DNA from: Falsiroseomonas tokyonensis
GTDB lineage: Bacteria; Pseudomonadota; Alphaproteobacteria; Acetobacterales; Acetobacteraceae
DNA length: 64,000 nucleotides
Direction of reading: 5' to 3'
Assembly: GCF_019024325.1 (NCBI RefSeq)
Contig: NZ_JAFNJS010000007.1
Span: 124,001 to 188,000, forward strand
How positions within the stretch are numbered: the first letter of the stretch is position 1; each line of letters starts with the position of its first letter. The position numbers and the translations under genes were made by a program. The notes beneath the pieces are model-generated. The model did no database searches. It worked only from the letters and a program-made list of their open reading frames with translations, and was not told the DNA's origin. Positions 37,141 to 39,142 of the stretch are shown piece after piece.

Positions 37141-37326
37141 CTAGCGCATGACCCCGACCGGTTGCCCCGGGGTGAAGGTTGCCGGCGTCGCGCACCAGCC
37201 CCAGTGATCGCAGTAGCGGGGCGAGCTGAGCACCACGATGTGCAGCAACCCCGAGACGGCAATCACGCCGACCATCGCCAGGAACAGCGATCGCCGCGGG
37301 TCCACCACCATCCAGATCTTATGCAT
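37141..37326 (-). CDS. pufA: Light-harvesting complex 1 alpha polypeptide
   Basis: A 61-residue single-span antenna protein. The N-terminus MHKIWMVVDPRRSLF is typical of LH1 alpha. The transmembrane helix FLAMVGVIAVSGLLHIVVLSS holds the bacteriochlorophyll-binding histidine, and the C-terminal side has aromatic and cysteine residues (CDHWGWC) in the region that tunes absorption. It lies 36 bp after pufB, and hairpins follow it. Confidence 0.95.
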   Translation of the reverse strand: MHKIWMVVDPRRSLFLAMVGVIAVSGLLHIVVLSSPRYCDHWGWCATPATFTPGQPVGVMR

Positions 37327-37362: not shown

Positions 37363-37542
37363 TCAGAAGAAGCGCCAGTCCGGCGGCACGATCTGGTTGC
37401 CGTAAACCAGCGGCCGCCACAGCCACACCAGGATATGCGCGCCCATCGAGGCGAAGACGGAGAAGGCCCAACCCTGGATCAACAGGGAATGGATCTCTCG
37501 CGCCTCGCCTTCGGTCAGGCCGGTCTTTGAACCTTCGGCCAT
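37363..37542 (-). CDS. pufB: Light-harvesting complex 1 beta polypeptide
   Basis: A 59-residue antenna protein: acidic N-terminus (GLTEGEAREIHSLLIQGW), then the helix AFSVFASMGAHILVWLWRPL with the bacteriochlorophyll-ligand histidine, and a short aromatic tail. ATG 37542 has GGAGG eight bases upstream and overlaps, as TGATG, the stop of a small open frame lying between bchZ and pufB. First antenna gene of the puf operon. Confidence 0.95.
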   Translation of the reverse strand: MAEGSKTGLTEGEAREIHSLLIQGWAFSVFASMGAHILVWLWRPLVYGNQIVPPDWRFF

Positions 37543-37685
37543 CAATTCGACCTCCAACTGGCCTTTCGGCCGATACCGCGCTGCTCCCGCGCGGCGGGGA
37601 TGGAACCGGCGGGAAACCGCCGAGGCCGATTCGCAAACCGCTTGCTGCGGCTGGCGAGATCGGAGGTATGCAGGGGTCGCGTCAT
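37542..37685 (-). CDS. Possible 47-residue basic protein in the pufQ position
   Basis: This short frame starts with an ATG that overlaps the bchZ stop as ATGA, has GGAGGG six bases upstream, and ends in a TGA that overlaps the pufB ATG. That is just the spacing of a translated, coupled gene. The product is strongly basic (many Arg and Lys) and has no membrane helix, unlike PufQ of Rhodobacter (about 74 residues, one helix). It could be a degenerate pufQ remnant, a new small protein, or a leader that couples bchZ and pufB translation. The same frame stays open upstream inside bchZ, which weakens the case. Confidence 0.4.
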
Positions 37686-39142
37686 GCGACGCCCTCCGCA
37701 ACTTGGTGCGCGACCACGTCGCCCAGCTCGCGCTGGACGCGTTCGCGCAGGATGCGCGTCTCGCCGGCCGCGCGGGCGGCGCGTTCCACGGCCTCGCGCA
37801 GGCGCTTGGCGGCGGAGATGCGCAGCAGGAAGGGCTCGGCCTCGACATGCGCATCGAGCAGGGCGACGGCATCGTCCTCCCAGGTCTCGGCGGCACGCGC
37901 GGGCGTCGGCTCGACGCGGTCGAGATCGGTGCCGAGCGGAATCATGTGGAACAGCGCATCGAACAGCGCGTTGCAGTATTCCTGCACGATGTAGGTCGCG
38001 CCGGCATAGCCCATGAAGGGCGTGCCGGTGGCGCGGCGGATGATGGCGCCGGGGAAACTGGCCGGGATGTACATCGCACGGGACTTCAGCTCCGCCGCAT
38101 ACATCCGTTCGTTGAAGCTGCCGAAGAGCACGAGGGGCGGCGACTTCTTCATCGCCTCGCGCACCGCCGCATTGTCCGGCTTCTCGCCGGCCTTGCGGCT
38201 GAAGGCGAAGGCGCAGGGCACGCCCATCTCTTCGCCCAGGAAGCGTTGCAGCCCACGCGCGTAAGTGTCGGTCGCGACGACCGCGAAGCTGGCACTGGCA
38301 AAGAAATCCTGGGTGACGCTGCGCCACAAATCCCAGATCGGCTTGATGGTGGTGTGCTTCTCACGCTCGATGAAGGGCTCGGGGTCGAGGCCGGTCATCT
38401 CGCCGAGCTTGCGGAGGAAGTTGGTGGTGGCGAACAGGCCCATCGGCGCACGCAGCCAGGGACGCTCCAGCTCCTCGCAGAGCTTCTGGCCGAATTCGCG
38501 ATACATGCAGACGTTGACATCCGCATCCGGCAGCTTGGCGATGTCCTCGACATGGCTGCCGAGGGGGAACACCAGATTCACCTCGCAGCCGATGCCTTCC
38601 ACCAGGCGCCGGATCTCGGCCAGGTCGGACGGCATGTTGAAGGTGCCGTAGATCGGGCCAATGATGTTGACGCGCGGCGTAGTGCCGAGCTTCGGGTTGC
38701 GCGCGCGCATCTTGCGGCCGCGAGCGCCGAATTCGGTCCAGAGCCACATGATGGCGCGGTCGGCGGCCTGCCACTGGTCCTCGTCGATGGTTCGGCAGAT
38801 GAAGCGCTGCAGGTTGCTGCCCTGCGGCGTCACGCCGCCGCCGATCATTTCGGCGATGGAGCCGGTGACGACGACAGCCGGCAATTCCTTGTCCTGCGTG
38901 CCGGCGGCGCGGCGCATGGAATCCTCGGTGCCGTTCTTGGACAGGCTGTCCTCGTCCAGACCCGTAACCACCACCGGCAATTCATGCGGCGGCAGCGCAT
39001 CCGTGTAGTGCAGCACGGCTGTGACGGGCAGGTTCTCGCAGCCCACCGGACCGTCGATCACCACGCGCAATCCGCGCACGGCGGAGAAGGCGTAGATCGC
39101 ACCCCAATAGCCACCAGCCCGGTCGTGATCGAGGACAAGCAT
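37682..39142 (-). CDS. bchZ: Chlorophyllide a reductase subunit Z
   Basis: A 486-residue NifK-like subunit of the nitrogenase-like reductase that reduces ring B of chlorophyllide a. The start [31 protein letters not shown] with a cluster cysteine, and [16 protein letters not shown] are typical of BchZ. With BchY it holds the catalytic site, fed by BchX. It starts 3 bp after the bchY stop. Confidence 0.95.

Follow-up and report, generated by a model that had tools for sequence, protein, structure and literature searches.

Computational evidence for a geometry-conserved reading frame and a structured RNA sharing the gap between bchZ and pufB

Does the short reading frame that fills the gap between bchZ and pufB matter for its peptide, for its position, or only for the RNA in which it lies? 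We addressed this question at a locus on the minus strand of a 64,000-nt stretch of DNA (the window), where the gene order is bchZ, pufB, pufA, pufL and pufM. The host genome is 6.16 Mb; judged by BchZ, its nearest named relatives belong to Roseomonas and Falsiroseomonas. The original prediction pointed to three coincidences in the gap, an ATGA start, a GGAGGG Shine-Dalgarno sequence and a TGATG stop, and all three were confirmed on the sequence (Table 1): the ATG of the frame (37685-37683) overlaps the end of bchZ (..GCA TGA) as ATGA, and its TGA (37544-37542) has one A in common with the pufB ATG (37542-37540). The accompanying warning that the frame is open far 5' inside bchZ was equally accurate, with 261 codons open; high GC lengthens open frames. 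The window's PufB (37366-37542) has an unusual-looking C-terminus, NQIVPPDWRFF, and its Pfam LHC score is sub-threshold (19.0 vs 23).

Table 1. Features of the bchZ-pufB gap and flanking genes in the window.
Feature	Coordinates	Strand	Evidence or remark
bchZ (chlorophyllide a reductase subunit Z)	37682..39142	minus	ORF and matches
GGAGGG, Shine-Dalgarno-like site of the bridging frame, within bchZ	37692..37697	minus	6 nt 5' of frame start
Bridging reading frame, 47 codons	37542..37685	minus	fills bchZ-pufB gap; geometry kept in relatives, peptide not conserved
H0, variable hairpin, directly 5' of the conserved element	37602..37627	minus	both-side pair changes; shuffle z
Conserved RNA element, 49 nt (S1/S2 likely pseudoknot and H3 GNRA hairpin)	37556..37604	minus	model R1 match 66.1 bits; no Rfam match
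S1 5' arm UCCC	37597..37600	minus	three-pair core kept in 97-98/98 rows; not above column shuffles
S2 5' arm GCCGCGC	37589..37595	minus	covariation
S1 3' arm GGGA, within S2 loop	37585..37588	minus	same evidence as S1 5' arm
S2 3' arm GCGCGGU	37575..37581	minus	covariation
H3 hairpin GGCC-GAAA-GGCC	37560..37571	minus	covariation; GNRA loop in 65/75 full-stem copies
GGAGG, pufB Shine-Dalgarno	37551..37555	minus	sequence
pufB (LH1 beta)	37363..37542	minus	ORF; Pfam LHC 19.0 bits, below cut-off 23
pufA (LH1 alpha)	37141..37326	minus	ORF; Pfam LHC 33.8 bits

For comparison, bchZ loci were collected from 59 related genomes, 20 of them with a match, and from named genome contigs (80 loci), giving a first set of 71 distinct gaps before pufB, none longer than 260 nt. 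Among close relatives the peptide itself appears neutral. Within three clades whose gaps are equally long, the frame gave pN/pS values of 0.77, 0.88 and 0.91, compared to 0.04, 0.05 and 0.11 for pufB in the same clades, while the last 240 nt of bchZ gave 0.15 in clade 1, 0.06 in clade 3 and 0.95 in clade 2, where the tails are unaligned and of unequal length. Variable sites were spread evenly over the three codon positions of the frame (12/14/17 in the window's clade, 3/3/3 and 8/9/10 in the other two), and GC by codon position was flat in the spacer (70/71/73%) versus 68/51/84 in bchZ. Gap lengths within the window's genus range from 139 to 166 nt, with local phase shifts; in the L050 group the two unequal lengths (143 vs 140) differ by three. 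The 47-aa product is basic and matched no Pfam or NCBIfam family up to an E-value of 10, and a recognizable PufQ remnant was not supported. A peptide shared by many translations, PAAR..RGNGRKA, was dropped as a candidate, as it is an RNA motif read in one phase that persists where the gap places it in other phases. A functional small protein could draw on the basic product, and a PufK-like peptide with ribosome-slowing codons on the resemblance to PufK, a short frame before pufB with joined stop and start, as described in PMC5725709; with pN/pS of 0.77-0.91, an even codon-position spread and an RGNGRKA-like stretch that follows the phase of the RNA motif, we regard either as very unlikely.

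That motif belongs to a structured RNA, missed in the original prediction, that is written over the same bases as the frame. Its parts follow in the order S1 (UCCC/GGGA), S2 (GCCGCGC/GCGCGGU) and H3 (GGCC-GNRA-GGCC), and then comes the pufB Shine-Dalgarno sequence. Searches of the window and 10 loci against Rfam returned no gathering-score matches, and nothing over the element at E-values up to 10. To evaluate the pairing, two alignments were compared with column shuffles. Alignment A3 placed 98 matches, amounting to 86 distinct rows, on a model pairing S2 and H3 but not S1, and because of that model it leans towards S2 and H3; in it, 96.9% of cells pair versus 94.1% in shuffles, and both sides have changed in 8 of 15 pairs, with 24 such cells versus 3.3 in column shuffles. 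In the model-free MAFFT alignment A1, 8 of 16 pairs showed both-side changes, with 16 cells versus 5.9 in shuffles. Both-side changes exceeded all 500 column shuffles in A1 and A3, and nearly all in the set that includes H0. A control structure slid by +3 columns matched or exceeded the both-side cell count of S2 and H3 (29 vs 24 in A3, 18 vs 16 in A1), with only about 38-39% of its cells pairing. Across 87 segments, H0 had a mean z of -1.30 against shuffles, 25 of the 87 falling in the best 5% of their own shuffles, and 7 of its 8 pairs had changed on both sides in 38 distinct rows, taken from 40 hand-chosen among the 87. For the structure including H0, these 38 chosen rows held 55 both-side cells, compared to 17.3 in shuffles and at most 20 in any slid control. 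Of the 75 copies whose H3 stem is complete, 65 have a GNRA loop. At the computational level, these comparisons show selection on RNA pairing in S2, H3 and H0.

The both-side changes of S1 do not rise above column shuffles in A3 (82/500 and 140/500), and S1 as a proven helix is unsupported by A3 alone. A three-pair core is present in 97-98 of the 98 rows, a count that includes 15 remote rows, 7 of which passed a detector of S1-like letters and 8 of which were read by eye; U-A replaces C-G in 3 of the 98, and columns 5 and 20 associate. From these patterns, an S1/S2 pseudoknot is likely rather than demonstrated. A diverged copy, L210, has S1 as ACCU/AGGC, S2 as GCCACGU/ACGUGGU and a UUCG loop in H3, with both-side changes in S1 and S2.

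The element mostly lies 31-37 nt (S2 end to ATG) 5' of the pufB start, on the sense side. The same block could be read as a DNA site, a promoter or dyad for a photosynthesis regulator, given that S2 is an inverted repeat and that puf promoters are often near bchZ. Covariation extends to H0 and H3, the H3 loop keeps to GNRA, and the spacing to pufB on the sense side is largely held; a DNA site is therefore highly improbable. The few conserved unpaired bases outside the CCC/GGG core would speak against a riboswitch ligand pocket. General hiding of the pufB Shine-Dalgarno sequence by the leader was not found among 88 leaders, with a probability of being unpaired of 0.47 in the full leader, 0.49 with the leader removed and 0.42 with a shuffled leader. 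Such hiding is predicted in part of the window's clade (0.20 unpaired in L001, 0.99 in L009).

We then asked where the RNA occurs. In the window's genus, the best match lies in the bchZ-pufB gap in 14 of 14 bchZ-bearing genomes. Among 385 class genomes, model R1 gave six matches in other genomes at E ≤ 1.4e-7, all six between bchZ and pufB, and in three of these a pufQ-like frame also lies between the two genes. Among the weaker class loci examined, down to an E-value of 6.5e-4, L119 and L121 are at pufB and L118, L120 and L122 are elsewhere. At E ≤ 0.001, matches were present in 60 of 299 order genomes; bchZ, pufB and pufL were present in all 29 loci L141-L169, and among 20 stretches fetched (L174-L193), 15 were at LH-beta genes and 5 were not. 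From a set of 398 phylum genomes came another two LH-beta cases (L170, L171), along with two that are not at LH genes (L172, L173). The element occurs four times in genome G678, each copy ending 16-23 nt before an LH-beta start, and the stretches fetched around three of them (4.0, 4.0 and 2.1 kb) had no bchZ or pufL hit. From the opposite direction, an LH-beta match was found in 27 of the 385 class genomes, the window's own included, and a script found the element before the best LH-beta match in 14 of the 27, with false positives in 18 of 900 mononucleotide shuffles; in G161 and G361 the element was found by the model and missed by the script's anchor, raising the count to 16 of 27. A shorter version was recognized by eye in 8 of 8 Rhodobacterales plasmids, and in L079 and L080 the element lies between a PufQ-like frame, identified by eye, and pufB. 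Taken computationally, this distribution shows a tie of the RNA to LH-beta genes.

The distribution is not uniform. There was no match at E ≤ 1 in L017, L020, L084, L090 and L097, matches were weak (12.6-21.1 bits) in L071, L089, L091, L094, L101 and L110, the Novosphingobium gap (L198) showed no element, Methylobacterium (L197) gave an ambiguous picture, and in Thiodictyon (L196) only H3 seems to be retained. Matches that do not precede LH genes (L118, L120, L122, L172, L173, L179, L180, L184, L185 and L186; 28-33 bits) were set aside as chance or unexplained. In L120 (1501-1551, minus strand), paired variants of S1 and S2 lie immediately 5' of, or within, a long non-LH open frame. Genome G182 carries, besides its pufB copy, a second, weaker copy (30.7 bits) just before pufQ (L114, 1895-1943, minus strand). 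In two loci labeled Gemmatimonadetes and Kuenenia (L108, L109), an S1/S2 part precedes pufB, with bchZ about 1.1-1.2 kb away. Within the window's genus, G009, a genome 99% complete, had no bchZ match, and phototrophy may have been lost there; in L005-L008 the BchZ C-terminus is longer and variable, with the stop 51-87 nt beyond that of other same-genus loci.

If the RNA accounts for the conserved bases and the peptide is neutral, the frame might be dismissed, and a reading of it as mere noise, drawn from the indels and the neutral pN/pS, was entertained and then overturned by frame tests across relatives. In the first set, an ATG overlaps the bchZ stop in 51 of the 71 distinct gaps, and an NTG codon of any kind does so in 67. 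A Shine-Dalgarno-like 4-mer (AGGA, GGAG or GAGG) in the 12-nt window 5' of the frame start was present in 48 of 71 gaps, compared to 274 of 2840 control windows from bchZ (9.6%). Representatives at most 80% alike in BchZ retain NTG in 27 of 29 cases and the 4-mer in 14 of 29, against 9.7% in the control. With frame 0 defined as the one set by the codon that overlaps the bchZ stop, and frames 1 and 2 serving as comparison, stops before the element numbered 6 in 2421 codons in frame 0, and 17 in 2336 and 22 in 2366 in the others. That the coincidences favor translation could not have been decided from one genome; across relatives, the start codon, the 4-mer and the frame ends described below support it.

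The frame tests were confined to loci where the element was matched. Searching 100 sources gave 98 element matches at 97 loci, and the 85 of these whose element is no more than 200 nt from the bchZ stop form a second set; of the remaining 12, 3 lack a bchZ hit and 9 have the element 329-1157 nt away from the bchZ stop. Eight of the 85 are the same gap held in two collections, leaving 77 distinct pufQ-less gaps that hold the RNA element. Across the 85 loci, the spacer contained 2 stops in 2513 codons of frame 0, versus 14 in 2403 and 13 in 2440 in the other frames, and the element was crossed without a stop by frame 0 in 77 loci and by the others in 52 and 37. In 52 of the 85 loci, frame 0 ended no more than 15 nt from the pufB start, compared to 8 and 1 for frames 1 and 2 (47, 7 and 1 in the 77 distinct gaps). 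Because the phase of the element relative to bchZ varies among loci, the test was stratified by that phase, with each frame read from S1 onward only. In the 77 distinct gaps, 47 such ends were observed against 23.6 expected (z 7.9), and the excess held in every phase class: 15 of 23 for frame 0 versus 8 of 54 for the other frames in class 0, 27 of 42 versus 2 of 35 in class 1, and 5 of 12 versus 1 of 65 in class 2.

The signal persisted as close relatives were removed, weakening in the smallest sets. The phase-stratified z was 6.1 for 51 spacer representatives; thinning by BchZ identity, which lowers relatedness but does not remove it (related rows are not independent), gave z 6.5 (n=61), 5.9 (n=50), 5.2 (n=40), 4.2 (n=29) and 2.4 (n=14). 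In the 29-member set (at most 80% alike), 19 of 29 frame-0 readings ended at pufB versus 8 of 58 others, and in the 14-member set (at most 75% alike) 9 of 14 did so versus 5 of 28, where a 30-nt window lowers z to 1.3. The rule has exceptions: 30 of the 77 distinct gaps have no frame end within 15 nt of the pufB start, 8 of them stopping 29-184 nt short, and outside the 85-locus set the frame ends too soon in L053, L090 and L097 (by 124-160 nt) and in L106 (by 35 nt). The exact TGATG join is a local feature: among 14 same-genus loci, only the window and L002 have it; in 11 of the 14 the frame runs 28-32 nt past the pufB start, and in L012 it ends 30 nt short. A one-base overlap of frame stop and pufB start was seen in 11 of the 71 gaps. 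In L113 and L114, where a PufQ-like frame is present, an ATGA frame of 49-50 codons (hand count) runs from the bchZ stop to about 8 nt into the PufQ-like frame, and bridging frames may thus also lead into pufQ.

These comparisons show, computationally, selection on the geometry of the frame and on the Shine-Dalgarno-like site before it, and the geometry supports translation of the frame. The original prediction had joined translation and a link to pufB with a possible small protein; frame geometry speaks for the former, and the pN/pS values and flat GC speak against a conserved product. It had also held that frameshifts or a lack of purifying selection in relatives would refute it. Both were found, and the frame is kept nonetheless; that test assumed selection on the product.

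We propose that the frame is a translated bridge, indifferent to its peptide sequence, that couples translation of bchZ to that of pufB across a structured pufBA leader, and we give this reading a probability of roughly 0.62. Ribosomes finishing bchZ would either reinitiate at the overlapping NTGA or be recruited by its Shine-Dalgarno sequence, and would then read the spacer of about 140 nt in frame 0, ending beside the pufB start, where the terminated ribosomes or their 30S subunits would restart on pufB. The pufBA leader would present, in order, the H0 hairpin, the S1/S2 pseudoknot, the H3 GNRA hairpin and the pufB Shine-Dalgarno sequence. On the long bch-puf transcript, moving ribosomes would keep the spacer translated; where a transcript starts within bchZ or the spacer, or is cleaved there, the RNA would fold and most likely guard the 5' end of the pufBA message, as reported for the corresponding R. 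capsulatus region. Actual translation, coupling, the pseudoknot and protection from RNase E are the parts of this reading that we infer. A guarding role is favored because the RNA does not generally hide the pufB Shine-Dalgarno sequence, and for the same reason the structure gives no evident reason for needing coupling. It fits passages on Rhodobacter in which 5' UTR secondary structure has a part in pufBA stability in R. capsulatus (PMC7148126), RNase E processes puf mRNA (PMC6238624), and the half-lives in R. sphaeroides are about 35 min for pufBA versus 14 min for pufBALMX (PMC3320616).

The guarding role raises the question of whether the RNA alone matters, with the processed pufBA message protected by a structured 5' leader, and with high GC and shared ancestry enough to explain the open frame. 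Covariation in the pairing, the absence of amino-acid and codon-position signals in the frame, and the lengthening of frames by high GC all accord with this view, as do the three G678 copies that precede LH-beta genes without a bchZ hit in the fetched stretch, from which it follows that the RNA can act without a bridge. It does not account for the frame tied to the bchZ stop exceeding the other two in ending at the pufB start in every phase class, or for a Shine-Dalgarno-like site far over control before the frame start, and we consider it unlikely.

The position of the frame also recalls pufQ. The notion of a pufQ slot was apt: annotated pufQ and bchZ share four bases in 7 of the 8 Rhodobacterales plasmids fetched (17 nt lie between them in the eighth), and they do so in Rba. 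sphaeroides according to a passage of PMC5725709. The ATGA and Shine-Dalgarno sequence could accordingly be left from a lost pufQ, in a frame now without a role, and the window's gap has no PufQ-like gene. Such a relic would leave unexplained why the stop tracks the same frame to pufB after phase shifts and why NTG and the 4-mer are retained at ≤80% BchZ likeness, and the product shows no PufQ similarity in Pfam or NCBIfam; we judge it improbable.

A closer parallel to a translated bridge is PufK of R. sphaeroides (Gong and Kaplan 1996, as described in PMC5725709), likewise a short puf-operon frame preceding pufB, which was suggested to gate ribosomes into pufBA. In that operon pufQ is present and the effect is credited to rare codons, whereas the present locus lacks pufQ, its frame begins on the bchZ stop, and peptide and length are free. 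The frame thus starts in the pufQ position and its arrangement would work like PufK, but it is not PufQ. The same position before pufB is occupied in R. capsulatus by the intercistronic region between pufQ and pufB (Heck et al. 1996). ATGA and TGATG overlaps are reported in PMC6728339 to have coupled translation in almost all of the 14 gene pairs tested there, and in the window both overlap types are present, at the two ends of the frame; the difference from such termination-reinitiation is that here the middle frame would be a bridge without a conserved product. The PhotoRC and psaA motifs are also structured RNAs at photosynthesis genes, but they are cyanobacterial, phage or marine and lie at other genes, and the main text of PMC2864571 has no word beginning with puf. 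In the literature searched, whose coverage excluded most subscription papers, we found no description of such an RNA or of a sequence-free bridge.

A broader possibility, which we hold only tentatively and think unlikely as a whole, is two-layer control of a kind that differs from known leaders, in which an RNA family of LH-beta genes would be folded or not according to ribosome traffic from the last bacteriochlorophyll-reductase gene, delivered through a frame conserved in geometry only. The family would range over alphaproteobacteria and the assembled loci labeled Gemmatimonadetes and Kuenenia. To our knowledge, most work on the pufBA leader has been done in Rhodobacter. A leader RNA that accompanies LH-beta genes from one order to another, combined with a geometry-conserved frame, would be directly testable by reporters. 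Frames of this kind fail Ka/Ks and homology tests and would therefore be discarded in annotation, and a phase-stratified stop test could find others. The matching of antenna protein to pigment in phototrophs is a long-standing question; if two-layer control is true, antenna synthesis would depend on continued production of the pigment enzyme and would require no peptide.
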